Of a stretch of 64,000 bases of DNA, positions 1 through 64,000 are shown piece by piece. Position 1 is the first letter of the stretch; every line of letters starts with the position of its first letter. Both the position numbers and the translations under genes were made by a program. The notes beneath the pieces were generated by a model that saw only the letters and a list, made by a program, of their open reading frames with translations, had not been told where the DNA came from and ran no database searches. The stretch lies in contig CM055107.1 in NCBI GenBank assembly GCA_029204225.1, positions 15,372,900 to 15,436,899 on the forward strand, written 5' to 3'. The stretch is from Diphasiastrum complanatum. Taxonomy: Eukaryota; Streptophyta; Lycopodiopsida; Lycopodiales; Lycopodiaceae.

Positions 1-700
1 AGAGTTGTATACACAACAGTTTCCAAATGAATAATACATCAGCATCACAAAGCATGAAATTGCACTATCATCAACAAGGCAATTCTCAAAATCAAGAAAA
101 AAAGGAAAGATAAATGCTGAAGGCTGATAGAACATACTACATAGACTGCCACACCCGCAGCAAGACCTAGCAACTCTAGATCTGGAGAGGAAGGGAACTT
201 TCTCAATAGTGGACATTGGGATCTACACTACTGTTCCTCTCAAGCACAAAAGAAAACTTCAATAACGTATTAGTACAGGTGGTAGTTGCTTAAAAAAAAG
301 AAGTATTACAAACGTTAAAAAAAATGAGTTTTCTTGTTTATAGACAACCAATGGGCTGGGGCATGTGGGAATATGCCCCAAGTTTGAAAGCCCTATGGCA
401 GGTCAATATGTCAGAAGAAATAGATGCGAGGAGGCTGAAATGGTTGCTCTAGGTGTGCACAAAAGGCTAGTATAGGGTTGGAGGTAGTTGAGCTTTGCTT
501 GCAGATTTGGCTAAGGTTTTGTTAAAAGGATTTGAGTAACTTTTCCTAATACAAGAGTAAAGGATTTGAGATAAAATACAAGAGTAAAGAGTTTGCTTAC
601 TGCAAGAGAGAAACGTTTGCCTGGCATAGCAAGAAAATAGAACTTTCAAGGAATAGCTTCAAGTTTTATAATAGCATGATAGTTTCTAAACGGTAAGCAC
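1..700. other. No gene seen; probable intron of the CASPL5A gene
   Basis: Both strands were read for the second CASPL exon and for other coding signal. Only short AT-rich chance frames were found. On the minus strand this stretch lies downstream of the donor at 709, so it is most simply intron 1. Confidence 0.5.
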
Positions 701-709
701 ATCAAGTAC

Positions 710-915
710 CAGAAAGCTGTGACGGTTGAAAAGTCTTGAATTGAGAGCATCATACTGAAGGAAACAACCGCAAAACAGAATTGAAGCAGTCGTAGCAAAA
801 GCGATCCTTTTGTTCCAGGCATTCCTTGCAAATGCTTCATTCCGAATCTTGGATGTGCGTCTCGTACTGCGGGAGGAACTCCGACCGGATGCACTGCGGG
901 ATGACTCATATCCAT
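710..915 (-). CDS. CASP-like protein 5A, first exon (partial gene)
   Basis: CASP-like proteins are four-helix plasma-membrane proteins related to the Casparian-strip scaffold. The exon starts at ATG 915-913 with MDMSHPAVHPVGVPP, the typical N-terminus of the CASPL5A group, followed by the LQGMPGT motif and the first transmembrane helix (LLRLLQFCFAVVSFSMML), ending in SIQDFSTVTAF. A GT donor (GTACTT, 709-704) splits a Cys codon (TG|C), so the next exon should begin with the usual YLV segment. No such exon is visible in positions 1-700, so the intron runs off the left edge. The family call rests on remembered homologs. Only the cytosolic N-terminus and first membrane helix are present here. Confidence 0.85.
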
Positions 916-1487
916 GATGATCTTAATACATCCACGATGATCTGACAGTATCATACGCCTTGCAAATTCTATAATGACTCCAAATAGTCTGATTCCTTCT
1001 CACATGTTGGAATGTTCATCTTCACCATACACCATTGCAAAAGCCCCTTGCTTCCAGTTCATTCTAAAAGATTCATGATTGAATCGATCTACATCGACTC
1101 CCTCAAAACAAACGTACACGATATTCATCTGTAAAGAACCACATTCAATAAAGAATATTTGTCAATTGACACAATGTAAAACCGAACTCTAACAAGCGTA
1201 TGCATCTCATTGAGTGTCATTTTTCTTGATATCAACGTAAATAAGTAAACACAGGTTGTCTATAAATCATTATAATCATATAGAGACCACCACAGAAAAA
1301 TGAAAAAGCGTATTCCACCTGCGACCATGAACTTGATCACATGCCATGTAGAAACTCATGGGGATTACTCGGTGCATTGAGTTCCTTCATACTCTGCAAA
1401 TCTTCCCAGGTTTTCTGAAGTTTCCAATTCTGCTAGTTACAAAACCATTATAATGGAAAACTTCTTGGTAAATGGCTGGAATCCTCG

Positions 1488-1815
1488 TCAAATTTCAAGC
1501 ACTATTAAATGAAAATTCTCTTCAAGATAATGGCTGTCAATTGTCAAATTTCAAATGCCGAGTCTCATGGCTGAACGATACTTTGCATTCCGTTATTACG
1601 ATACAAGCAAAAACATTCAAATGGCAAACTTATTATAGAATGGCTATATCTTTGTCAAATTTCAATTGTCATTATATCACGGCGAGATAATACTTTGCTT
1701 TCAATCACAAGCGAAAGCGTTAGAATCGAAAACTGCTCAGCAAAAATGGCTGAATCTTTGTCGAATTTCGATTCCCGTCACACATAATGAATGGATAGTA
1801 ATTTGCTTTCAAAGA
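1488..1815. repeat. Degenerate tandem repeat, about 105-110 bp period
   Basis: The phrase GTCAAATTTCAA recurs near 1489, 1543, 1652 and (as GTCGAATTTCGA) 1757. ATACTTTGC and TTTGCTTTCAA segments recur at the same offset. Spacing of the last three is about 110 and 104 bp. The two open frames crossing it (1472-1690 and 1666-1980) have no family features and are best explained by the repeat. Confidence 0.45.
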
Positions 1816-1980
1816 TCATCACGCCGGCTGCTGCTTGCGACCAAAAAACTGATGCAGGATTGTCTGTTAAAGAGCCAAATTCAACAATTACTGTACGAAA
1901 AGATGCGCCCTCCCAGAGTTGGCCATAATATAGATCGACGGAATAACAAACGAAAAGAATCTTTCAAATGCCTCGATTGA

Positions 1981-3540
1981 ATCAACAAATGCTGGCATGA
2001 CTTAAGCAAAAACGGGATCGGAAATCTATGAAGAAAGGTTGTCTTGCTTGAGCTGGCAAGCCACCTACCTACCTGCCAACGAAGGCGGTCTCACCTCTTC
2101 GAGAGGTCACCTCCTAGGACCTAGGAGACTACGTGTGAGATCCCCAACCCCCCCCCCCCGGGTTGAGGCAGGTTCCTCTCAAGGATGCTTGTGGGTGCCA
2201 TTTGAGAGATTCAACACCCGCCAATCAAAAGGCATCGGGTTCTCATGAAATTAGCTCCTCTCGTAGGCTAGTGCGGGCCTCGATTGAGGCCAGTCCCATA
2301 CACGTCCAATTGCTAGTCACGAGCCTAAATGCTTGTATTAATTAGGGTGGTTTCAGAGTAGTGGCAAGTCCTTTTGTCTGGCCCTTTGACTTGCCGCCCA
2401 TTTTTTGAATTTTCGGTTGTGAGTTGACGAGCAATGGACCACCCCCTTTTCAGACTTGGCTGGCAAGTGCCAAACGAAGGGCCGCAATCTAATTGACCAG
2501 TATGAACCCCTACGATATGAATGGTCCATTTTTGCGAAGTTGCCCCTGGCAACTCAACATGCCACCTCATCTGCCACAAGGTTAGTCTAAGGGAGACCGG
2601 GCTTAGAAGGTACACATTTGAAGAAATGCCCGTCGCGAAGGCTAATGCATTTGTCAATGAGAAGGCGTGGTAGCACGTTCACATACAGACATGGCTCAAA
2701 GTTAAAAGAATATGTACGTTTGTAGGCATTAACCCAACACCCACCGCATGTCGAAAACCTAGGGCCTCACTCCATGCGTTAGTACGAATGTGGGAACAAA
2801 TGTATCAAGTTGCATATGTGATGAATCCAAAATAATGTACCATTTTGAGAGCAGTCAAGATGTGAACCTTCTAGGCAGGTTAACAATAGGCTATTTTGAC
2901 GAGTGCAATAGTTTCACTACGACATGAATTAGTGCAATAGCTTCATTACAACACGCATTACTGTCATTTCTCTCTATCATGTCATATATACGACATATAG
3001 ACCTTGAAAAACTTGTAGACCTTGCATATTGCAAAGCCAAGACAATGTGTTCAAGAGTTATTGGAAATATGGAAGTTTGATAGAATTAAATTTGAAGGCC
3101 TGCTTTGAAATCTAATTTGCTCCTACCTTGTCAAGTAGGACAATTTATTGATGTATTGCCTTGATGGTTAGGTAGTTAATCTAGACACAACCTTGCACTA
3201 TGTATCTATCACATATGACACTAGTGTTGCACCATCACCACCACCAACAACAAAGTGTGTGTACATGTGTACCATATGCATATGCATATTACTATAATGT
3301 TATAAGACCAACATGTTGAGTAGGGTAAAAGTGCTACTTACCTACTATGGCATAGGCACAAACTTTGCTGTTGTGTCACATTGAAGATTGGAGCCTTTGA
3401 GTTCCATTTAGGCTTGACCACCAACTCTTGATATACAATGTATATTTGTTTAAATACAAAACAAGCCTTGATGTACAATTAACTCACATTTACAACATTG
3501 AAAGAAAGAATGAAATTCATTTTGTAAGTTCATACTTTTA
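1981..3540. other. No gene recognised
   Basis: AT-rich sequence with a C-tract near 2147-2159 and short chance frames. I see no domain, RNA gene or repeat that can be named. Confidence 0.4.
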
Positions 3541-4439: not shown

Positions 4440-5405
4440 GTCGACACCAACTGAATTGTGAAAGCATTTAACCATAACCATTGTCTCATACCATCATCCA
4501 TTGTTCTTGACTCTCATTGGCACACATATGCATTTTGGCTATGCATCTGTTTGTACCATCCACTAGATTTCGAGCTTCTAAATGTATCTTTATCCTCAAG
4601 GCATAAATGACCGCAAAGAGTTCATGTTGGGCTAGGTCCAACAATTTTCTTTCAAAAGCAACTGGTTCTACCATATTGTTAAAGTAATATTCTTACAACA
4701 TGGTCACTATCATCCATCTCTTTCAAAAGCAACTAGTTCTACCATATTGTTAAAATAATATTCTTACAACATGGTCACTAGCATCCATCTCAACAAAATA
4801 GAATTTGTTTAGATCAACTATGTGTTGTACTTGTGTAGTAGATACAATACTCCAAAGCCTAAAAGCTTTCATTCGATTCAATGGTCCATTATACTAGTGG
4901 ATGATTTTACTATTATTGCTAGTCTTATTCAATCTCTTTAGAACATTTGTTAAAGACAATGCCAACTAGACATATTCCTTAATGAATAGATTAAAGAACT
5001 TGAAGCCTAAAAAATATTTTATTGAAAATTTATTTTCAAGATAGACCACTCTTGTACCTTATGAATCTTTTTATAATAGATCTCAATACCACAACAAGAT
5101 ATGATATAGCCTCGGTACTTGAGTTTTGATTAAAAAAGCTTACATTCTAATTCTTCAACATAGAGCTTTCTTGCCTTCCAAATATAAGATGATAAAAAGT
5201 GTTCTTCTCCTCCTCAAGGGTCCAGCTATAAACCAAAATGTCATCAAGTAAAAGTTAGAATTCATTACATGAGTTCTCGAGTACAAAAGGGACCTATAAG
5301 AAATGCCACTTAGGATGGACAAATTCATCAAAATTAAAAAATATAATACAAGAAGTGCCTGCCCATAGTAGTTAGAATGTGAAACCGCTCTGGTTACAGT
5401 CATGG
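4440..5405 (-). mobile_element. Gypsy RT/RNase H relic
   Basis: Reading on the minus strand, fragments in several frames follow Ty3/Gypsy order: a decayed RT end, then near 4815-4770 a piece resembling the RNase H start (YFVEMDAS), then PVAFE and HELFAVIYALRI near 4670-4590, which match the RNase H 'PVAFESRKL...E.LAVI.AL' region. Many stops and frameshifts are present and no LTR was found. A 53-bp stretch (TCTTTCAAAAGCAACT...) is locally duplicated near 4650-4700 and 4718-4770. Confidence 0.55.
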
Positions 5406-5450
5406 CTACGGTTATGGTTAACTAAGGTTTCTCTCAGGAGAAATTAACTC

Positions 5451-5760
5451 TCGGGAGAAGAGAGAGTGGGGCAAGAATTGAAAAGAAGAGTGCCAACTAC
5501 ATTACACTATAGATTTAGCAAGCTAGAGAAAAATAAATGGACGTCATTATAACATTTGCATCAATTAGCAATCACCATCTTTGAATGCTACATAAAATGC
5601 TTACATCTCTCAAGAGAAAAGAGAGATGGCAAGATTTGAGAAATAAGAGCGCCAACCGAATACACGGATTAAGCAAGCTCAAAAACAAAAAAATGAGTGG
5701 CATGGCAACATTTGAATCAAAGATCAATCTCATTATTCAAGTGCTGTGTGAAATCATAAA
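5451..5760. repeat. Two-copy tandem duplication, about 155 bp
   Basis: Copy 1 (about 5451-5606) and copy 2 (about 5607-5760) share a series of matching words: CTCTC..GAGAAgAGAGAG, GGCAAGA.TTGA, AGAG(T/C)GCCAAC, GATT(T/A)AGCAAGCT and AACATTTG.ATCAA. The duplication abuts the first recognisable sequence of transposon copy A and may lie in its left end. Confidence 0.6.
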
Positions 5761-8110
5761 CTGGTACTTCGAAATGTATAAAGACGCTGATTATATTACA
5801 TTTATTTATTTTTGGTTGAACTGATATTGATTGTACTCTACTTTTTCTTCTTACAATGAAAAAATTCATCTCCATATAGATCTTCTTGAAAAATATGCTT
5901 ACTCACAACTATTGAAAGGTGTTGACTTGATAGGTAAAAAGGTAAAACAGAAAAACGAAAGCGAGATCAACACAAATATTCATAATTTGTCATCAATAGG
6001 AAGCAATCAAAAAAGGAGAATTTATGCATTTAAGTAGTTTTCAACTTCTGGCCTTCGCAATCTTTTTTATACTTCAAGAGTTCATACCTTATGTTGTTTT
6101 TGGAAGATTGTAAATTGTAACATTAATCATTTATTTTAATTTTCTCTGTTTAATAGATGTGAAAGAAAATGCTTCTATAGGCAAGTCTTTGGGCTCTGTG
6201 TTGACAACAAAATAAACTGAATCATTGATTACCAATAATCGAAACAGTCATGTTAAGATATAATTGTTGATTCAGTACACAAAATGATTGAAGTACACAA
6301 AATCCTTGACAACACTATAGTCCTAGGAGCATGTGATTTTGCTAGAATAAGCAGAGATGCTTATGGCACCATACTTAAGGTTATCAAAGAGGCTTTTACG
6401 TTGGTTAGCATTAAGAAATTTCCTATTCCACAACCATTTTAAATAAAACCAGAACGTGATACATTGAATAGAGGAATTCAAAAGATTATTGGTGTTCCAT
6501 TTTATATCGAGGAAATACAATGATCAAAGGACAAAAAATCCATGTCTTACAATCAATCAAATAGCTTGTTTGTAAATATGAATATGTTATTAAGATTTAT
6601 TATACATTTCCATGATATTTCCACGGAAAAGGTAGACAATAAGATAGTCTTGGTACTGAAGTTAGATGAATCAGAACTTATTAAAGGACAAAAAATGGAG
6701 AGAGTGAGTATAACACTCATGAATGGAGCTCTTCAAAAGACAAACAATCAAAGAGATTTCAACTTCAATGTTCAGTCCGAGAATGACATCTAGTGGTTGG
6801 CAACCTTTGAGGTATGATTTCTTATAAACTAAAAATTAAAGTATTTTACTTGGATTTGATATTGTTATCAATTGACTAGTTTTTTGTCTGTCCATTTTTT
6901 AGGTTTTAATAGAAGATTATGACATTCTATCATGGGTGTTTAGCAAAACACCATATCTTAGAATTATCAAAGAGCATAAGGATGGGGAACTTTTCAATGT
7001 ACCTAGAATAGGAGACTTCAAGGTAGAGTGGCATTTGGTTAGTGATTTGAAAACTTTAAAATGTATGTTCAATGTTTCCCATGGAGCAACCTCCAAAAAT
7101 CCATGTTTATATTGTATGAAATCATCAAATGACATGACCAAGAATACAAGAATAACAAGAGACAAAGAGGATCCAAATTGGAACCTATTCTGCCAATTCC
7201 TCTATAAAATGTGCATATTTGCACTCTCCAGCCTGAGGTTAGAATAATCAAAAAGCTTGTGTGATTTCATGTTATATGCTTGGAACACTAAGCCAGAATC
7301 ATCTTCCAATGAGGCTATTTCTAGATTAGAAGATGTTCTATCTAAAGTAGGTCTCCATAAAGGACATGTGGAAATACAAAAGGACTTTAAGCTTTCAGGG
7401 GAAACAATGTACCCTGCAAGCCAAGCATTGGCAAAGCAAAGGTGAGAATATTTTTATCTAACCATTCAAGAAAGCCATCTAAGACACATTACTCAGTTTA
7501 AAAGACATCATAGCTTCTACTCAAGATTTTGAGCAGAAATGATCAAGAAGTATGAAAAAAATTAGATGATATGGTTAAAATATTACGAAAGAAAAGATTT
7601 TCAAACAATGACTTGTGACTGCTCCAGAAAAGTTGTGTTGAGTTTGTAGATGCAGTTAAAGTGGCATGGGGAGCAAATCATATCACACATTACATGGTAA
7701 GCATTTAAAAACAAATATCAAGTTACCATTTTATTTCAGTTTTTGAAGTTTACCTATTGATAGAAATGATTTACATTTTACAGCACATCTTACAACACCA
7801 TTCCATATCCTTAGCAGAAAATCATGGAAGTTTGAGTATATGGTCATCACAAGGGATGGAAAAATCTCATTGGCAAGCAAGAGCGGCATTTCATAAAAAC
7901 AAACAACATGGTGGCCTCAATGATAGACACAAATATATCTTTCAACTATTTCAATGGTTCTATCAACGAGCACAAACACGACATGAAACAAAATCTACAT
8001 ATTAAATCAATTTCAGAGAGGCATGCAAATTTATACATCAAGGGAGGTAGATTGACAAACACAACATTGTACTATATATTTGCAATTGTATTGAAAAAAT
8101 ACATTTCCAA
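5760..8110 (+). pseudogene. Transposase-like gene of copy A (decayed)
   Basis: Pieces in order: a Lys-rich N-terminal part ending QKRRIYAFK at 6037; a likely intron; then from about 6166 GKSLGSVLTTK, followed after stops by NRGIQKIIGVPF and KGQKMERVSITLMNGAL. After a probable intron (about 6812-6902) comes an open stretch, 6936-7247, with FKVEWHLVSDLKTLKCMF and the Cys pair NPCLYCMKSS. Further on are VGLHKGHVEIQKD and finally, near 7815-7975, ENHGSLSIWSSQGMEKSHWQ and FQLFQWFYQRAQTR. The W-C-x2-C segment and the later HGSL...QGxEK segment recall an unclassified family of transposase-like proteins known from animals and plants; that link is from memory. Stops and frameshifts show the gene is dead. 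Confidence 0.55.
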
Positions 8111-8124
8111 CTGATTGGATATGT

Positions 8125-8250
8125 CTATATATCCTTGCCATCTTCTTTTTCTTTTTCTAATACCAGTTGCATTTTGTTGTCATGGAAGAATTCTCTTCTT
8201 GCAAATGGATCCAAAAGATAAGTATTTCTTTTTCTCGACATAATTCTATG
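8125..8250 (-). pseudogene. C-terminal fragment of the convergent transposon gene (copy A)
   Basis: The frame reads RKRNTYLLDPFARREFFHDN and ends KEKEDGKDI. It aligns with the end of the minus-strand gene in copy B (SKRRSTRFLDPYDRKKFLHDH). It lies just downstream of, and convergent with, the transposase-like gene, exactly as in copy B, which is the main evidence that both genes belong to one element. The rest of the gene is missing. Confidence 0.6.
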
Positions 8251-54169: not shown

Positions 54170-54785
54170 GGCGGAACAGACTGCCAAAACTTGCGTAATC
54201 GGCTGCCATTCACAGGAGTATCAAACCGTTTTCCGTCCAAGTGCTCAAGAATCACTGCTCCATAGTTCAGGATTTCCTTAACTTTATACGGCCTTCATCG
54301 GTAACTTCAATTTTCTCTTGATCAGCTTGGTTTTGTACATCAGTGTGAGATCTCCTGCTTTTAGACCTTTCCGTGTAATCGAGGATCATGCCATGTCTTA
54401 CGGCGGGCTTTCTCTGCTGCTAACGCATGAACTGCCATCAATCTTGTTTCACACAATTTGTGCAACGCTTCATGACGTAGTTGTAAAGACTTATCATCAT
54501 TTAACCGTTCTATTGCTGTTATGCGTATAGATGGTATTAAAAATTCAATTGCCATGACAATATTTTGACCATAAACCAGTTGAAAGGGTGTTTGATTTGT
54601 ACTACTTTTGTAAGTGGTTCTGAATGCCCATTATTTTGCATGCAGTTTATGTTCCCAATCAGATCGACTCGCTTCAACTGTTTTCGTCATAATAGTGCAG
54701 AGAATCTTATTGGAAGATTCAGCTTGGCCATTCCCTCTGGGATAATAAGCATTAGAGGAGTTAGAAACATCAAAAGGGCCATCTA
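54170..54785 (-). mobile_element. Gypsy integrase C-terminal fragment, minus strand
   Basis: Reading leftward from 54780: NAYYPRGNGQAESSNKILC, TIMTKTVEASRSDWEHKLHA, NQTPFQLVYGQNIVMAIEFL, RLMAVHALAAEKARRKTW, then (frame-shifted) YKVKEILNYGAVILEHLDGK. This is the Ty3/Gypsy integrase catalytic end and C-terminal domain. It resembles the 53.1-53.2 kb fragment but runs the other way, so the two are separate insertions or one rearranged element. Confidence 0.85.
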
Positions 54786-55059
54786 AGAAATGCCACGTAG
54801 GACCAAAAAAAATGCCGTATTTTAAAACTCTAACGGACTTTTAGGTCCAGTTTAGCTTAACCTTGCTAGTAATGTGTAGTTAACATGACACGATTATGAC
54901 GCATGCAACTGCGACTTCAAGAACCTATGACGCTCATTAACTAACTTTTTCAAATTTGAAAATGAGATTGTGTCCCTCATTTTAACTAGTGAGAGAATAA
55001 ACATAGAATCTCAGGTACGCCATGGATGAAGAATAGTGTCTATTTTCTTTCTGGTCTGT

Positions 55060-56540
55060 CAGCTGATGTTTGCAGAGATGTCTCAGTTTCATCTACACAT
55101 TGTTCTCCCTGCCGAGAATGCTCTGATAGCTAAAAGAGGAGTAGTGAAAGAATCCACAGTTTCTCCACTTGATATGATCGCTCATAGAATCAACCAAAGA
55201 AAGAATTACGATTGTGAATTGACAGAAGTTTGTATCCATTGGATCTGATCTCGATGCAAGCTCCACAATTCCAATCCATCACACAATTAATAAAGTTTTT
55301 GTGTGACGGAGAAAACGGTTTACCGGGTTATTGTGAAAGATTGACGACTTATGGTGTTGCAAACTCAGTTCGAAAAATACAGAGTTTAGAATGTATGTTA
55401 AATGGTTTGCTTGCTGACTATAGAGAAAAAGAGCTCGTATTATTACAAACAAAAGAAGATAATGCAAGTTTACATAATATTATGTTAAATTTGAATGCAA
55501 GTAATGATCAATTCCAACAAGTTGTTCAGACATTACATATATCAAGTGACCAGTTAAAAGAAGAAACTCGCATACTAGATAAGAAATTAAAAAGAAACAA
55601 GCGAAAAAGAATTCTGAAGGACATTGATGAGCTTTCGCTAAATGGAGGCCAACGGAAAAAAAAGATTTAAGCATTCAAGTAAGGATTTGATTTGAATCAG
55701 TTTTATTTTAGTTTTGTGAAGTAGCATGACATTTATTATGTGTCCTATTTGGGTTTCTTGATTTTCATAATCATTTGCAGATCAGCATTGGTTGCAAATG
55801 AGCATCTGAAGGACAATGACCTGATCGGAAAATCACTAAGTTCGGTATTGACAACCAAGTCCACAAAGTCTTTATTGGACAATAATCGGTATTCTCGAAT
55901 CAAGTCCAAAGTCACTGAGGCTTTGATGAACGAGGTCGGTAAGGTAATCGACCGAACGTTAATTCAGGGAGCATGTGATTTCTCAGGTATTAGCAGGGAG
56001 GCATATGCTAGTATATTTAAAATTATTAAAGAGGCTTTTGGACAATTGCATGTAAGAGAATTTCCCATTCCTCGCCCTTTTTAGATAAGATTGGAGAGAG
56101 ATGTATTGAATAAGGGTATGCAAAACGTCATTGGAATCCCTTTTCACATCAATGAGATTTACAATTCAAAGTCTGGCAATTTGTCATATAGTTCTACCAA
56201 CAACTTATTTGTGGATTTGAATCATTTATTGAGATTTATATTGAAATTCTATAATATTACAAATGTTAGTATGAGCAAACTTATTTTGGTGGTCAAGCTA
56301 GGCGAATCGGAAGTTATAAAAGGACAAAAGTTGGAAAGAGTAAGTATTACTCTCATGAATGGAGCATTGAGCAATGCAACAAACTCAAGGGATCTCAACT
56401 TCAGTGTGCAATCAGAAAACAACATATGGTGGCTAGCATGTTTTCAGGTTAAAAATGGCAGCTATTCCAATGGTTTTATAGACGAGCTCAAGTTCGATAC
56501 ACAACAAGATCAATTGAATATCAAAGATTCAAAAAAGTAA
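55060..56540 (+). pseudogene. Transposase-like gene of copy B, internally deleted
   Basis: The N-terminal exon starts after TTTGCAG (55075) with MSQFHLHIVLPAENALIAKR. It shifts frame near 55245 to a helical, basic part (QFQSITQLIKFLCDGENGL, LKRNKRKRILKDIDELSL) with a stop where copy A has Tyr. A likely intron (AA|GTAAGG to TTTGCAG) runs to about 55780, then DLIGKSLSSVLTTKSTKSLL, GACDFSGISREAYASIFKI, an in-frame TAG at 56083, and ERDVLNKGMQNVIGIPF. KGQKLERVSITLMNGAL and WWLACFQ follow. At about 56448 it jumps to a late piece, QLFQWFYRRAQVRYTTRSIE, so the central part with the C-x2-C pair kept in copy A is deleted. This copy cannot encode a full protein. Confidence 0.6.
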
Positions 56541-56644
56541 ATAAATTTATAAGCCAAAATTAGATTGATGGCATTCAATAAAGATCAAATGCGTGTGATC
56601 AAAAATTCTCAAATTTCACATGCATTAAATTGAAAAGAGTACAA

Positions 56645-58176
56645 TCATTTTTTTTCATTGTCTCTAAGGACAATTTTTGTTGTGTGGTCATGAAGGAACT
56701 TTTTCCTATCATACGGATCCAAAAATCGAGTGGATCGCCTTTTGCTCAGATCTATATATCCTGATAGAATTGCCAGAGCAGATGATCTCATAGGAACATT
56801 TTCTAGCACGTAATTGAACACTTTAAGAGCAACATCTCTTTTGACAAAAATGATTCTAAATGTATTTTTTGGATATTTATGGCCTTGGGCAAAATAAGAT
56901 AGGGCCGTGATGGCCATGATTAAGGCTCCCGCATTCACAAAAAACCTTTCATGAAGAATACAAATTTCTTTATTTACAAAATGTTTCAAATAATGAGCCA
57001 ATGAGGCATCCTCATGTCTTCCGCCTTGTCTCTCTCTCAATCCTCCATGCCTGCTAGCAAAGGCATCAACTTCAACGATTTTCTACAACACATAATAAAG
57101 TGTTAGTCAAACTAGCAGATCAATTATCAGTTACACTTTAAATAGTAAATGATTTTTGTGAGAAGGTATACTTACCAAATCCCCCTCGTCAGTTTGGATC
57201 ACACAAGCAGCTTCTAAATTGTGACCAGCAATAATGGTGGATTGCTGGTCAGCTGGAATAGTATATATGGGAGGTGGCTGATACTTTTTCTAAAAAGCCA
57301 AAAACACCTCCTCACTCGGCATATTAGCCTCATATGTCCTGCTCTCAGATAGCATCCTTTGAAGGGCATCTGTGCCACTTGCCCATTCTACCTGGTCCTC
57401 ATAGTCGATGCCATCATGAGATCGTCATCATCAAAGTCAATAAAATCATTAAATTCAGAAATCATCCTTGACATAAGAGATAATATCTTATCTTCTCTGA
57501 GATCCATTACGTCTTTGATGTCGCTAATGGACAAGAATGCAACATCGTCCATATGGTAAACAAGGAGGTCCATCAGGGTTCTGCTCTGGTCAATCTCGCT
57601 CATAATAGATAAGGGAGAGATAGACAGAGAACGAGCCTTGGCAGGAACATATTGCTGTGCTTGTCTGGCTTTCTCTACATCTCCTAAAACCTCATCAATA
57701 ATGGAAACCTCTGAAGCCACATGAGTGATAGGGGCAGACAAACCAATCATGGACGACCCAGAAGATTCTGCCTCGTCAGAGATAAGAGCAAATAAGAAAA
57801 ACACGAAGGCCATACCCTCCTGAACGAAGTGACATACTCGATTGTGTTCCTCACAGGGTATGACACGTTTAAACAGATCGATAAATTTGACAAACTTACG
57901 ATCATGCCTTTGCTTGACACTAGGCTGAGCATGAGTCAAATCTGTGAAATGCACAAATTTCAGGCCGTCCATCAGAAGGGTACCCTGTTTCAAGCACTCA
58001 TGAAAATTCTTGTACAGTTTGGGCAAAAATTCCTTGTGCTCAATAACAAATCTCTCTATGTCAAACTGAAAATCGAAATAGGACAAAAAATGGGCCTGTC
58101 TATTGGTAATCGCAGCATCAACAAGGAAAGAACTAAGAGCTCTATCATAGATCGAACTACTAGAAGAGGAGGCCAT
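56645..58176 (-). CDS. Convergent transposon gene, unknown family (damaged)
   Basis: Not a family I recognise. It begins at ATG 58176 with a Ser run, followed by an open frame of about 260 residues (SFLVDAAITNRQAHFLSYFD; later an acidic region with IDFDDDD). Near 57400-57430 the coding sense moves by one frame to EWASGTDALQRMLSESRTYE, which meets a stop near 57291 and resumes as KKYQPPPIYTIPADQQSTII and ends QTDEGDL|GTAAGT. After an intron, the last exon (about 57084-56645) reads KIVEVDAFASRHGGLRERQG, ALIMAITALSYFAQGHKYP and FLDPYDRKKFLHDH. Full length would be near 490 residues. Only its end survives in copy A. One frameshift and one stop suggest recent decay. Confidence 0.55.
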
Positions 58177-58429
58177 ATCGATATGAGACGCCGATTAGCA
58201 AGGGGAAATCAATAGTGTAATCCTGGATACGTGATGGCGATATACACTTTACATGATGCCAGATATCAGAACTATGCACCAGGGGAGCAGCGCGACTATG
58301 GAACGATCTGTTGGACGCGTGGTAGTGATATTATATGTACTAATTTAGCAGCAGGTCGGTTTCTTGGACTCAATATGTGAGACTAAATTCCAAAAACGAC
58401 ACCCAAATATATAGTCTAATTCTAAGCAT

Positions 58430-58775
58430 CTGAACCGTACACGTGTTTCGGAAACGTGCCGTCAAAATTGCCACACGTGTGAAACGACGGCCCAATCATT
58501 GGCATGACACATGTACACTTCAGATCCTGACACATGTGCTTGCACGTGTATGCCAACCGTACGATCGTACGAAGCAGTCATCTCGTGATGCATGTGTGGC
58601 CCAAATCATGACACATGTCCTCGCACATGCATGCCAGCCGTATGATCATCCGGATTGCTGATGTCCTGACACGTGACAGGTTCGTGTGATGATACGTGTG
58701 ACCACATGTGCGGGGAGTGGAGGTGTCACATCACACGTGTGAATATGATGGGACGTTCTACAGGTATAAAAGGAC
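58430..58775. promoter_or_regulatory. Divergent promoter region rich in CACGTG/CACATG, with TATA box
   Basis: Five CACGTG (G-box) cores (near 58440, 58472, 58543, 58672, 58735) and several CACATG/ACATGT words lie within about 300 bp. Two diverged direct copies start at 58528 and 58609 (period 81), each TGACACATGT...GC(A)C(G/A)TG.ATGCCA(A/G)CCGTA. A perfect 14-bp palindrome, CGTACGATCGTACG, spans 58558-58571. TATAAAAG at 58765-58772 would drive the plus-strand H3-like/protease cassette. The region lies between divergent starts at 58176 and 59022. In plants G-boxes bind bHLH and bZIP factors; binding here is inference. Confidence 0.55.
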
Positions 58776-59021
58776 GTTTTCGGCTCATATTTTAGTTTCG
58801 GATTTCTTCGTTCCCTAGTTCTCCTCAGGTTTCTTCATTCAGTTCCACTCCTCGCTATACGCATATCACTACCACATGCCTAGAGACTCACATACCAGTA
58901 CAGATTTCCCCTCCGCGCGTCATGGCGATACGCCAGCTGCCATATCGCCATTATGTGCCTCCCCTATCGGATATGCACTTTTCTTTCTCATTGGCGCATC
59001 ATATCGATACCTTAGTTTGAA

Positions 59022-59465
59022 ATGGCCCCTACCAAGCAGACAACACGCCTTACCACATTTGCCCCACCTCCTCGCCCTCCTATACAAAGGGCAGTGGGCA
59101 CTGGTAGGAGAGTAGGTCAGCCCAGAAGACCATGGTTAAGGGATATCATGAGACTTCAGAGGACAATGAATCTTCTGATTCCCCGTGCTCCGTTCTACAG
59201 ATCTGTGAGATTAGTGACAAGGTCACTCTCACATGATGTTCATTGGAACATAACAGCCCTGGAAGTCCTCCATACTGCCTATGAGGACTTTCAAGTCAAA
59301 TTCTTTGAGGACTCCACGCTTTGCACAGTGCACGCTAAGAGAGTTACCCTCATACCTCAGGATATGCATCTTGTCATGAGGCTGAGGAGTACATATGATC
59401 AGGTCTTTAAGAGTGGCTTCACCTCTAGGCCACCACCTACAAAGAGAGGGTATGTTCCTCAATGA
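59022..59465 (+). CDS. Divergent histone H3-like protein
   Basis: 147 residues from an ATG in good context (GAAATGGCC). The N-terminus MAPTKQTTRLTT mirrors the H3 tail start: the equivalent of Lys4 is kept, Arg2 is Pro and Lys9 is Leu. The tail is then shortened, Pro/Arg-rich and lacks a Lys27 equivalent. The histone fold follows: RRPWLRDIMRLQRT and LLIPRAPFYRSVR (alpha-N and alpha-1), then FFEDSTLCTVHAKRVTLIPQ (residues 94-113), with the family's FED..LC..HAKRVT signature. Spacing from the loop-1 Asp to FED equals ordinary H3, without the longer loop 1 of CENP-A. A 25-residue C-terminal extension (GFTSRPPPTKRGYVPQ) is not typical. No internal stops. Its stop overlaps the next ORF as ATGA. 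Confidence 0.8.
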   Translation: MAPTKQTTRLTTFAPPPRPPIQRAVGTGRRVGQPRRPWLRDIMRLQRTMNLLIPRAPFYRSVRLVTRSLSHDVHWNITALEVLHTAYEDFQVKFFEDSTLCTVHAKRVTLIPQDMHLVMRLRSTYDQVFKSGFTSRPPPTKRGYVPQ

Positions 59466-59668
59466 AGAAGGAGAAAGTAGACCAAGCCCACCAGACCTGC
59501 CAAGCAAAGGGTGGTACTCAGCGAATCACCATCCCCCCTCACATCTCTCGTCCTTTGGTTGGACCATCACACCACTCTGCAGTGCGTTCTTCTCCTCCCA
59601 CCACTCCTAACTATTCAAGTAGTTCCTCTTCCATTCCCTCCATTCCATCCACAATAACAAGGATATGA
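59462..59668 (+). CDS. Pro/Ser-rich linker ORF
   Basis: 68 codons starting at the ATG inside the ATGA that ends the H3-like ORF and finishing in a second ATGA that starts the protease ORF. It begins basic (MKKEKVDQAHQTCQAKGGTQ) and turns into low-complexity Pro/Ser/Thr sequence ending PSIPSTITRI. No domain. It may be a linker of a once-continuous H3-protease protein separated by two frameshifts, or a true middle cistron. Confidence 0.4.
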   Translation: MKKEKVDQAHQTCQAKGGTQRITIPPHISRPLVGPSHHSAVRSSPPTTPNYSSSSSSIPSIPSTITRI

Positions 59669-60588
59669 CCTCTATTGTAGATAAAATAATATCGGATCTA
59701 GATATAAGTTTAATAGGTGATTTTTATAAGGATCTTTGTGTAAGATTTCTTGTTGATCTTAAAGATTCATTTTTGGATTCTGAGAGGTATATAGTTTTTG
59801 ATGAGTATGTTGCCAAAAATATTGATAAGCTAGGACGTCAATTTTCTTTTTGTCTAAGTTCAATTAATTATGTAAATCACATAAATAAAGACTTTTGTGA
59901 TGCCCTGAAGGAGAAGACAGCAGATACATTAGATCCAGTTGCGGAGGCTGGTTTGATGTATTTTGTAAATAGGCGTAAATGCAATGATACTAAGGACATT
60001 GGAGTTGTGCTATCTTTTTTTGCACACAGTCTTCATAGTCCAACTGAGGCGACGAAGTATCTTCTCCATACAACCTCGGAGACCAAAGTCTTTATTATTC
60101 CATACTGCCAAAAGTAAGTAATTACATAGAATATATTCAAGTAATATTTTTAATAGGTATTGTAATTCCTTCCATTTAACTAATTATCTCTTGTTTGTAG
60201 TAAGCATTGGAGTATGCATATAATCTCCCTTAGGGAAGATTCAGATGGGATCATTAATCCCATATGTTTAAAGATGAATTCCTTGAGCTCTACCCATGCC
60301 GAAATGGACGTGATGTACAGCAGAATGTTGTCATTTTTGCCAAGGCCAGATGGGGCCACTGTAAATAGCCACTTGGAGATTGTTGATGCAGAAGTAAGTA
60401 TTTCTCATTAAGTATTTGATAGGTAATATGATTTGTTTTTTTCAAAGTGCACAAATAACCTATTATACGTTTTGTAGTTGAAGTCAGCTAAGCAAGATGA
60501 TGGACATAACTGTGGATGGTTCCCCATCCGCAATATACAAGACTTCTTAGAGTGGTACATCATGCAATCCGGGGCTTCAGATATATGA
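59665..60588 (+). CDS. ULP1-type (C48) cysteine protease
   Basis: C48 proteases cleave SUMO or similar modifiers and are frequent cargo of plant Mutator- and CACTA-type transposons. Three exons: 59665-60113, 60201-60393, 60478-60588, with AAA|GTAAGT/TTGTAG and GAA|GTAAGT/TTGTAG borders. They keep frame and give 250 residues. Seen: KVFIIPYCQN then catalytic His152 in KHWSMHII; the position normally held by the catalytic Asp (Y-D-S) reads M-N176-S; Gln220 and nucleophile Cys226 stand in QDDGHNCGWF. The first 140 residues are helical and unassigned. A further acceptor near 60707 suggests an extra 3' exon, but the frame ends at 60588. Apparently intact. Confidence 0.75.
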
Positions 60589-61172
60589 AAGGTAAATTGA
60601 CTACTGAATGGCCTAACTAAATTATTTTCGATTTGGTTCCTGATCAATCAGGCCCTTTGTAAAGATATTTTTTTTGACTTTTCAACTTGGTTATTTTGGA
60701 TTTGCAGTATAAATGTCGAGCATTTACAATGAATGAGATATATGAGTTTTCAACAAATGTTGGTGAACTTATTATCTCATGCAACATCCAGTCCAGCTGC
60801 GGATACGAGAGGGCAATCAAGTCCACAACTGACACTAGTACAGGGTGGAGATAATCCATAATACTTTGAGTTATAAATAATAGATTAAATAGAGATATAG
60901 ATTTTTGATGTAATGCCCTGTGAATAATTATGGGCATATAGAAAGATAGAGACAATGGGGTAAAAGCATCCATTGTAAAATACAGGACGCACATGTACAT
61001 TCTCAAAAAATGAGAAATATATTGATATTTATGAGAGTTTTTACAAATATTGTATCATGATTGCTCTATTATTTGATTTTCTTTACATGTCTTTTACGTA
61101 TCTGCACAAACATACATTAATCAAATTACAGTTAGTGATCTGAATATTGACAAAAAGGATAATGAATACAAA

Positions 61173-61505
61173 TTAATATACAGATTCATAAATTTGACAT
61201 ACCAATTTTCCATCCAATATAAAGCTGAAATATTCCAGAATATCTTGCTGTAAAAGTGTCAGTTCCGTTCTAATGTAGAATAAGGTCCAATCCTGCTCAA
61301 CCTCAATAGTAGTAAGTAAATCCCCATTTGCCATGATATCAATGCATATACGATCAGTGTGTCCAATGTTGTCTAGATCTTGATCTAATGGGGCCCAAGT
61401 ACCATTGTGTTCTTTCCATGTCTGATAATGAAACACCATACTTAGCATTTGCTTTTCTATACTGTATCTAAATGATATGGATATAACGTTTGATTCTACA
61501 AGCAA
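61173..61505 (-). CDS. Ubiquitin-like fold exon, partial gene
   Basis: An open minus-strand stretch with a beta-grasp pattern: strand RICIDIMANG, strand LLTTIEVEQDW, helix TLFYIRTELTLLQQDI, strand FSFILDGKL. It is followed by a GT donor (GGAAAATTG|GTATGT, about 61200), so the frame after KL is intronic. Upstream sequence (HYQTWKEHNGTWAPLDQDL) lacks a clear start. The Copia LTR beginning at 61536 lies just upstream and may have cut the gene. I cannot name the family. If it belongs to copy B, a ubiquitin-like protein would sit beside a C48 protease. Confidence 0.4.
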   Translation of the reverse strand: MLVESNVISISFRYSIEKQMLSMVFHYQTWKEHNGTWAPLDQDLDNIGHTDRICIDIMANGDLLTTIEVEQDWTLFYIRTELTLLQQDILEYFSFILDGKLVCQIYESVY

Positions 61506-61535
61506 TATCTACAGTGGATCTTATATCCCAACCTT

Positions 61536-64000
61536 TGTGTGCAAAAAGTACAAAAAGGACGAAGAGTGGATCCTAATCTGATCCTCAAGAGGGATTGGTT
61601 GTCAGATTACTTGATCTATCAATCTACTTCAGATTAAGATCAATCTAGATCAATTCTAGACAGAAAATCCTAACAAGAACAATCATTAATTGAAGGTAGG
61701 TGTACTTTCTAGTTTCACACGTGTAAAACATTGTCTGAGTACGGACTCCAACCTGAAAATCAAGTACACATTGATAGAACCTCAAAACCATCAAAACAAA
61801 TATAGACAAATGGAGAGAATCACTCAAAATTGCTTCCAAAACCAAGATTGGTGTCTCACATTGATTATGGCCAAATAAGCCTCTATATATATTTGTTGAG
61901 TTGTTTGATTATCAAAATATATGCATGGAATGTCTTCATCCTTGATCACATGTAGCTCCTTCAAAAGCCTTTTAAGCCAAAGAATCTCCTTTGTTGTTGT
62001 TGTCATAGCTTTATATTCGGATTTTGTTGATGAAAGAGAGATGGTATCTTTCTTTTTGGAAAGCCAAGATATAACTCCTCCACATAAGAATGTAGCAAAT
62101 GCACTTATGGATCTTCTATCCATCTTGTCACCTACAAAACTTGAGCCCCGAATATGCTCTCAAACAAATATTAGTCCTTTCATAAACTATGCCAAAGTCT
62201 TTTGTAGCCGAGATGTACCTTAACACCCTTTTTGCTCCTTTCCAATGACATATTAATGGACTTTGCATGTATTGACTCAACTTGCCAACACAAAAACTAA
62301 GATCTGGTCTAGTGATGGTTAAGTATATCAAGGAACCAATAAGCATTCTATAGGTAGTGATGTCCTCAAAGGATGCTTCATCACTTCCTTAGAAACTTTT
62401 ACACTTAGTTCCATAGGAGTTTCAACTCCTTTACAATCCATCATGCCAAATTTTGCTAAGATTGAGCTAGCATACTTAGATTGACATACGAAGGTAAAAT
62501 CATTACTTCTAGTGACTTCTATTCCAAGTATAACTTTAAGAAGTCCTAGATCTACCATCTTAAATTCACTAGACAAGGAAACTTTTACATTCTTGATGCC
62601 ATCTAGATCATTTCCTATGAGTATAATGTCATCAACATATAGAACTAAGATAATGATCTTTCCATCATTACATTTGTAGTACAATGATGGTTCATAAGAA
62701 CTTACAACAAATCCAATGGAAATAAGAGAGGAATGCAACCTAGAGTACCATTCTCTTGGTGCTTGCTTGAGTCCATAAAGACTCTTCTTCAAGAGACACA
62801 CCTTGTCTTCTTCTCCATCTTTGATGAAGCCCTCGAGTTGGCACATGTAGATTTCCTCTTCCAAGAATCCATTCAAGAAAGCATTTGTCACATCAAGTTG
62901 TAAGAGCTCCCATTTGAAAGAAGCTGCAAGACATATGATTAATCTAATGGTCATAGGCTTTGCAACAGGTGCAAAGGTTTCATCATAATCTATGCCTTTG
63001 ACTTGCAAAAAACCTTTTGCTACAAGTCTAGCTTTGTACTTATGAATGGAACCATCTTGATTATATTTCAATCTATATATCCATTTACAAGTAAGAGGCT
63101 TCTTTCCATAAGGAAATCAACAAGTTTCCAAGTTTGATTTTCCATTAATGCATCAACTACTTGCATAGCTTTCCTCCAATATTGAGACTTATTTGCTTCC
63201 TCAAAACTAGTTGGTTCTTCAAGCATAGTAGTCAAGAAAGTCTAAGAGTCCACCTTTCCTTTGGCTTGGAGAGATTCATCAAAAAGTACATCTCTACTAG
63301 CAACAATTTCTTTTGTAATTATAGAATCATATATCCTATAAGCTTTCTTACTTTCACTATAACCAACAAAGATGCCTTTGAAAGAAGTGGCATCTTTCTT
63401 TTTCCTTGTTTCTAAAGGAATATGTACATGACAAGTACATTCAAAAACTTTCAAATCACTAAGATTTGGCTTTTTGCCAAACAATACTTCATAAGGTGCA
63501 AGTCCTTTAATGGCACTATTAGTCATATTATTACAAAGAAAGTTTGCACATAAAATAGCCCTAAAATGAAATAGGAAGAGATGCATCTAATCTCATAGCT
63601 TTAGCACACTCACATAGTGTCCTATTCTTTCTCTCAGCTACTCCATTTTGTTGTGGAGTATATGTACAAGTAAACTCTCTCTTTATGCCATTAGTTTCAC
63701 AAAACTCTTTCATCCTATTGGAGATGTACTCCCCTCCATTATCACTTCTTAATACTTTCAACCTAGTATTAAGTTGCTTTTCCACAGGAGTTTTGAACTT
63801 TTCTTAGACAAGAGATAAACCCAAGAGTATCTTGATTTATCATCAATAAAAGTGACATACATAAGAGCTCCACCATTTGATTCATGTGAAAATGAATGAA
63901 CATCCGAGTGTATAAGGTCAAGAGGAGAGTTAGATCTTATCAAATATCTCTTGAAATGAAGCTTATGAGATTTGGAGAGTCCACAGGCTTCAAAAGCTTG
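61536..64000 (-). mobile_element. Ty1/Copia retrotransposon, family A, partial
   Basis: Runs off the right edge. 61536-61887 matches the second half of the 11024-11864 LTR in reverse, starting TGTGTGCAAAAAG. The rest of the LTR and the end of RNase H are deleted: coding resumes at 61888 after CIYFDNQTTQQ. RNase H and RT are read leftward from 63071, then integrase from 63943. Very similar to the 9.3-kb copy over RT. Confidence 0.9.
61888..64000 (-). pseudogene. Copia family A pol (integrase-RT-RNase H), partial
   Basis: Integrase: PLDLIHSDVHSFSHES, TFIDDKSRYSWVYLL, RSDNGGEYIS and TYTPQQNGVAERKNRT supply the D-D-E residues; the fold then runs to FVGYSESKKAYRIYD. RT: KARLVAKGFLQVKGIDYDE, LQLDVTNAFLNG, YGLKQAPREWY, catalytic LYVDDIIL and VILGIEVTRSND, without the deletion found in the 9.3-kb copy. 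RNase H: MLIGSLIYLTITRPD, KDTISLSSTKSEYKAM, ending after DNQTTQQ. Frame breaks lie near 63760, 63570, 63110, 62340 and 62130. Confidence 0.88.

Follow-up and report, generated by a model that had tools for sequence, protein, structure and literature searches.

We describe here a DNA transposon of the lycopod Diphasiastrum complanatum that encodes a histone H3-like domain joined to a C48 (Ulp1-type) protease domain, and which we call the H3-C48 transposon. It lies in a stretch of 64,000 nucleotides (the window: assembly GCA_029204225.1, contig CM055107.1, positions 15,372,900 to 15,436,899), for which an earlier reading of the letters alone (the sequence-only reading) had proposed a transposon carrying its own H3 variant and a C48 protease. 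The element is bounded by terminal inverted repeats (TIRs), is presumably of the cut-and-paste type, and has many genomic copies. Established here are the element itself, its ends, its gene order, the fusion of H3 to C48, signs of selection, and a lysine-poor histone tail. This anatomy suggests a chromatin-facing accessory protein.

The 1.74-Gb assembly was queried with the H3-like open reading frame (ORF) of the window, giving 694 first-look candidates, of which 40 (the window included) were scored; DNA identity to the window ORF was 92-100% in all 40. Copies were aligned in 23 rows, made up of 20 of the 40 scored places with their flanks, two short unplaced sequences (L006 and L007) and the window. 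Some rows probably duplicate one insertion (L019 and L027 have common right flanks; L012 and L006, as well as L014 and L007, have common deletions), so the independent copies number fewer than 23. The left boundary, CATTAGAGGAGTT...AAAGGGCC, is shared by nine rows (the window, L010, L012, L015, L017, L023, L025, L026, and L028), the remaining rows being truncated or having their left part outside the fetched DNA. The right end, read as its reverse complement, is CATTACAGGAGTTCTCAAACTTAGAAGGGCC and pairs with the left end, which gives TIRs with CATTA termini. Both ends are present in eight copies (L010, L012, L015, L017, L023, L025, L026, and L028), of which L015 has a left flank of just 7 bases and an altered right terminus.

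Four of these copies are full-length, namely L010 (8961 bp), L023 (8791 bp), L026 (9017 bp), and L028 (9063 bp), and they are also the 4 of 23 rows that combine both ends with at least 75% of each of the four genes found in the 9056-bp majority consensus. The whole C48 span is covered in 16 of the 23 rows, 9 of which also cover at least 80% of gene 2. These four two-ended copies with all four genes, and a sister family with the same gene order (described below), support the proposal that the transposon carries its own H3 variant and C48 domain. The contrary outcome named beforehand, in which the transposase and its convergent neighbour (genes 1 and 2) would end before the H3/C48 side, is absent both from the four full copies and from the sister family.

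The sequence-only reading had reported neither a TIR nor a target-site duplication (TSD). The inverted repeats shared by the copies overturn the first statement, and the second stands: by eye, a flanking direct repeat of at least 2 bp was seen in 0 of 8 two-ended copies, and no target motif was noticed at the eight insertion sites, few as these are. For L023, the joined flanks were compared with an uninterrupted paralogue as the empty site; the two align with no base added at the junction and a single extra one some 10 bases from it, which excludes a duplication longer than 1 bp for this copy. The flanks of L025 and their empty-site candidate are too diverged for an exact reading, and when an empty site for L028 was sought in the sister copy L021, the left flank had no match.

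Read from its open frames, gene 3 is a single gene predicted to encode H3 and C48 as one fused protein. In L026, exon 1 has 365 open codons that run from MAHTKQT through the H3 fold and a basic linker into the C48 domain, and this exon is fully open in 3 of 23 rows (L017, L019, and L026). The possibility that H3 and C48 are separate genes was rejected, since one open exon spans both in these three copies. The H3 ORF and the protease had previously been taken for two genes on either side of a divergent promoter; they proved to be one gene, with the promoter-like interval between genes 3 and 2, and the window copy resembled two ORFs because its frame is broken after 147 codons (ORF 59022-59465). 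When the protein database was searched for relatives of the fusion, 1 of 1446 candidates passed, a histone-domain protein of Perkinsus, and in the open-licence literature we found no report of a histone-protease fusion inside a transposon.

The histone part has, as had been proposed, a genuine H3 fold: the window ORF matches Pfam Histone PF00125 (E 2.9e-20) and solved H3 histones in a PDB search (best E 2.7e-20). The consensus has the features of a core H3, namely the fold, an HAKRVTxMPxD region, a MARTKQTAR start, and a core in which 40 of 89 residues agree with those of a canonical H3. The consensus tail is MARTKQTARLTTFAPPPRPPVQRAVGTGRRVGRPRRP, its residues 1-9 matching canonical H3. All but one of the 23 copies retain K4, and all 23 have Leu at position 9. 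Against the canonical sequence, lysines number 4 versus 14 in the 134-residue H3 part, with K4 alone versus 8 in the tail. A nine-row tree groups the H3 of the element with that of the sister family (94/97); their descent may be from either CENH3 or canonical H3 (H3.1/H3.3). Just outside the L015 element copy (L015:7514-7801) there is another H3-like pseudogene, with 2 stops, 45% identity to a reference H3, and an LLLPRAPF motif.

The proposed C48 protease domain is also present. When three consensus exons are joined by eye at GT/AG, the spliced domain matches PF02902 at E 4.3e-7, scoring 30.4 bits where the cut-off is 20.7; without exon 1, exons 2 and 3 reach 18.2 bits, under that cut-off. 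Searching PDB sequences with the spliced domain gave no match up to E 10. In the transposon described here (family 1), an alignment by eye of 17 readable copies has the His in 16, the Cys likewise in 16, one of the two Gln codons in 16, and the other in 15.

In a sister family on C10 (L037 and the start of L028), transposase pieces with 58-72% identity to those of family 1 are followed by gene 2 and then H3-C48, with order and orientation kept. Its fusion starts MARTKSTARA and is 37% identical to that of family 1 over 383 aligned columns, in which the sister copy, a decayed one, has four stops. Between the two families, identity at codon positions 1/2/3 is 0.64/0.70/0.37 in 121 H3 codons (65 residues identical), 0.42/0.48/0.33 in 90 linker codons, and 0.53/0.59/0.41 in 142 C48 codons. 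Within family 1, nonsynonymous/synonymous changes in the H3 part are 69/23 among single-copy changes versus 42/30 among shared ones (Fisher p 0.029, or 0.0096 without CpG-type changes), where this and all other within-family p values are per test and uncorrected for multiplicity and duplicate rows enter as shared changes. In C48 exon 2, shared changes likewise alter the amino acid less often than single-copy changes do (p 0.022, or 0.19 without CpG), and the same comparison for gene 2 gives p 0.039 (0.19 without CpG). These substitution patterns carry signs of selection on the H3 part and of its retention across the split of the two families.

Two side observations concern the sister family: the L028 copy is apparently inserted in an element of that family, between its N-terminal transposase exon and the next exon (junctions in L028 and L031), and beside the sister element (L037:807-1844) there is a host-like ORF of 345 codons, by eye a putative glycosyltransferase.

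The window itself holds another relative, copy A. The transposase/convergent pair had been thought to recur at 5.7-8.25 kb as a second copy; a related pair is indeed found, at 5.26-8.24 kb, but it belongs to a different, related family and cannot count as a second H3-C48 transposon. Its transposase pieces (6159-8041) are 41-67% identical and its gene 2 tail (8241-8158) is 43% identical. Copy A is, as described earlier, truncated before the H3/protease side, none of which is preserved.

The transposase is of the RAG1/Transib-fold type. Its relative P0003 has a RAG1/Transib-type RNase H fold in which D411, D508, C528/C531, H761/H766, and E785 (DDE triad, CxxC, and HxxxxH) stand at RAG1-like spacing; we take their RAG1 counterparts to be 600/708/727/730/937/942/962. 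In an alignment of 10 rows, both Asp residues and C531 are present in 10/10 and C528 in 9/10; the region with the two His and the Glu is reached by just 3 rows and is kept in 3/3. No sequence-level match of the transposase was found in PDB or NCBIfam, and neither the transposase pieces nor four relatives had a relevant Pfam match, the hAT domain included. The element thus differs from hAT elements in lacking a hAT domain (Pfam scans) as well as an 8-bp TSD (8 copies), and from CACTA (EnSpm/CMC) elements in its CATTA termini and the lack of a 3-bp TSD; we know of no CACTA transposase structure for comparison. With Transib/RAG-like elements (ProtoRAG, AanRAGL), it shares the RNase H fold, the DDE triad, CxxC, and HxxxxH, and it differs from them in having no 5-bp TSD (0/8 copies; 1 bp at most by the L023 empty site), none among its four genes that we recognise as RAG2-like, no Pfam or PDB sequence match to RAG1/Transib, and ends that read CATTA and not CAC. 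Transib/RAG-like termini begin CAC. According to excerpts of PMC9435367, the AanRAGL TIR is an example of this type of terminus, and 39 Transib-like proteins have been reported in plants.

The coordinates of the element and its parts are collected in the table. The sequence-only reading had recognised a transposase-like and a convergent gene in the window, and both are there. The span previously given, 54900..61510, is changed at its left, where the element starts at 54750 with its TIR, and its right edge corresponds here to a truncation at 61538 and not to the end of the element: beyond this point the window has other sequence, and nine other copies continue for another 1.17 kb or so, up to a single sharp end. 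Compared with L026 and L028, the window copy has lost about 1.1 kb at 56459 (junction 56459-56467), and most of the transposase catalytic region is consequently missing from it.

Features of the H3-C48 transposon consensus, of its window copy, and of the related copy A (positions are those of the window unless marked as consensus)
Feature	Position	Strand	Basis
Gene 1	consensus 397-2904	+	majority consensus
Gene 2	consensus 4539-2992	-	majority consensus
Gene 3	consensus 5365-6950	+	majority consensus
Gene 4	consensus 8732-7511	-	majority consensus
Damaged H3-C48 transposon copy, left end intact, right end cut off	54750..61538	+	homology to fetched copies from 54744-54750, stops 61538
Left terminal inverted repeat CATTAGAGGAGTT...AAAGGGCC	54750..54784	+	boundary shared with 8 copies; matches reverse-complemented right end
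Gene 1, RAG1/Transib-like transposase N-terminal exons	55081..56468	+	tblastn of consensus pieces 55197-55679, 55725-56468; start codon 55081 by eye
Remnant of last transposase exon	56459..56560	+	tblastn 91% to residues 63-96 of last consensus exon piece
Gene 2, convergent, two exons 58191-57137 and 57079-56648	56648..58191	-	consensus; relatives in sister families; no Pfam match
Putative divergent promoter, CACGTG-type (G-box) array and TATAAAAGG box	58436..58775		site counts; TATA-like box read by eye
H3-like N-terminal domain of gene 3	59022..59396	+	PF00125 and PDB H3 matches (E-values in text)
Basic linker and N-terminal half of C48	59397..60117	+	single exon in open copies; window frame broken
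C48 exon 2, KHW motif	60196..60378	+	97% to consensus; PF02902 match of spliced domain (E-value in text)
C48 exon 3, Q...CGW motif, then stop	60478..60588	+	81% to consensus; stop by eye
Gene 4, 3' part, severed by foreign sequence on right	61173..61538	-	96% to consensus residues 172-273 of second exon
Copy A, truncated member of another related family	5263..8241	+	TIR/CATTA left end at 5263; no H3/C48 side preserved

Genes 2 and 3 are separated by an interval that resembles a regulated bidirectional promoter. In the consensus it has 11 CACRTG/CAYGTG sites within 300 bp, versus a mean of 1.0 and a maximum of 6 in 1000 crude shuffles of the promoter segment, and in the window copy too a CACGTG/CACATG palindrome array is dense (58436-58740) and is followed by the TATA-like box. 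Genes 2 and 4 have no Pfam match. By eye, the C-terminal part of gene 4 (window 61173-61538, IDIMANGD...FILDGK) appears to be of ubiquitin or doublecortin type; Pfam gave no match to it, and a structural model with a predicted local distance difference test (pLDDT) score of 42 was unusable. Should this C-terminus have a real ubiquitin-like fold, the C48 domain might have it as a partner or as a substrate.

How does the H3-C48 transposon compare with known systems? A histone H3 cargo had been described as not known, which does not hold for fungi: in Dothideomycetes (Pyrenophora H3L; Pseudocercospora), hAT elements carry a captured H3 (excerpts of PMC6710886 and PMC3538342). According to the same excerpts, these are likewise TIR DNA transposons with an H3-like gene at tens or hundreds of copies, but they have a hAT transposase and, in Pseudocercospora, an 8-bp TSD, whereas we find a RAG1/Transib-type fold, no TSD, and a plant host, to which copia-type polyproteins read by eye also point. 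Their H3 is a captured gene, inactivated in Pseudocercospora by repeat-induced point mutation, and the excerpts mention no protease fusion; here, H3 is fused to C48 and there are signs of constraint. In plants, VANDAL/non-TIR Mutator-like elements (MULEs) have Kaonashi (KIU) genes with Ulp1, and VANC-type proteins counter silencing (excerpts of PMC13317346). The Kaonashi MULE is thus, like ours, a plant DNA transposon bearing a Ulp1/C48 domain, but its transposase is of the MULE type and its Ulp1 is joined to a VANC-type gene, in contrast to the histone here. Some Cryptons also bear a Ulp1-family (C48) peptidase, in oomycetes and in CryptonS, and differ in being tyrosine-recombinase elements, with no histone mentioned in the excerpts of PMC3212892. 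In the excerpted text of a 2026 review on gene capture in plants, the word 'histone' occurs 0 times. New here, as far as the open-licence papers searched can tell, is the histone-protease fusion in a transposon; transposon-captured H3 in fungi, Ulp1 in plant MULEs, and plant Transib-like proteins were already known.

In light of this anatomy, what might the fusion do for its transposon? The explanation we prefer, tentatively and with somewhat less than even confidence, is that an old, selected H3-C48 component blunts the silencing of the transposon that encodes it. The H3 part would pair with H4 and be incorporated into, or docked on, nucleosomes, where its tail could be marked or read at K4 and not at K9, K27, or K36. 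The tethered C48 domain would remove or bind SUMO-type modifiers locally, and silencing of the element would be blunted where the fusion is expressed, favouring transposition. Nucleosome assembly, SUMO activity, and anti-silencing are steps that we infer. A fuller form of this idea, an anti-silencing nucleosome of a mobile element with its own H3 variant, with K4 but no K9, K27, or K36 marks, and with a SUMO protease in the nucleosome, which would put chromatin containing the fusion beyond the reach of ordinary silencing, seems to us rather doubtful.

Several observations weigh against an old and selected anti-silencing component. The copy sample was drawn through the H3 query and is hence blind to transposase copies that have no H3, and a third, more diverged relative on C4 (L025:8404-10000 and L038:1-993) has a transposase and gene 2 with no H3 within about 6 kb beyond. 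No copy intact in all genes is present among the copies examined. The exact MARTKQTAR start occurs in just 4 of 23 copies (at residue 7, 12 copies have Ala and 10 have Thr), and the tail of the sister family has Ala at position 9 and two additional lysines beside the fold. Besides the lack of multiplicity correction, no significant constraint is seen within the family in the linker taken with the N-terminal half of C48 (single-copy 124/40, shared 68/30, p 0.31), in the pieces of the transposase (p 0.49 and 0.098), or in gene 4 (p 0.098). Lastly, all 17 readable copies have Asn at the position aligned by eye with the Ulp1 catalytic Asp, and the single sister copy apparently lacks the aligned His (by eye), so that the C48 domain may be inactive as an enzyme.

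This last point favours one of two serious rivals, in which C48 would be a SUMO-binding pseudoprotease, a non-cutting reader that brings the H3 fusion to SUMO-rich silent chromatin. Arguing the other way are the His, Cys, and Gln codons kept in nearly all family 1 copies and the fact that papain-type enzymes use Asn at the place of the catalytic Asp; moreover, the sister copy that lacks the His is decayed, with stops. The second serious rival is a cofactor or target selector, in which H3-C48 would bind H4, nucleosomes, or the transposase and would steer integration or de-SUMOylate the transposition complex, with no anti-silencing role. The gene does lie between the same ends as the transposase, in an order kept in the sister family, and RAG1 is partnered with a chromatin reader, RAG2, whose PHD finger reads H3K4me3, the K4 part of the tail being what the element retains; the absence, by eye, of a target motif or TSD at the eight insertion sites speaks against steering, though the sites are few. 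We regard the cofactor as unlikely, if a real contender, and the pseudoprotease as more unlikely still.

Two further explanations can be set lower. In passive transduplication, a captured host histone gene would be a functionless passenger, as for the H3 captured by fungal hAT elements (excerpts of PMC6710886), and a fully open exon 1 in so few rows would fit such a history. The in-frame fusion, the conservation between two families with codon-position constraint, and the lower nonsynonymous/synonymous ratio of shared than of single changes in H3 all make it very improbable, and a recent passive capture is rejected by the sister family and the codon-position pattern. Taken by itself, the window copy and its broken frame would permit host H3 and C48 genes to have come by chance to stand beside a transposon through an error of annotation or assembly; we give this practically no credence, and it is ruled out by H3 being inside the element at many loci, by TIRs on both sides in eight copies, and by the sister family.

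For the preferred explanation, an H3-C48 component that blunts silencing, the wider interest lies in a question posed in the excerpted text of the Pyrenophora paper: are captured genes, such as a transposon histone, under selective pressure? The answer here appears to be yes, for a histone that is fused to a domain of chromatin-modifier type and kept through a split into two families. The H3-C48 transposon would be a natural test of how a parasite might work inside the nucleosome against silencing that depends on SUMO and H3K9, and it adds to the cargo known for RAG1/Transib-fold elements outside animals.

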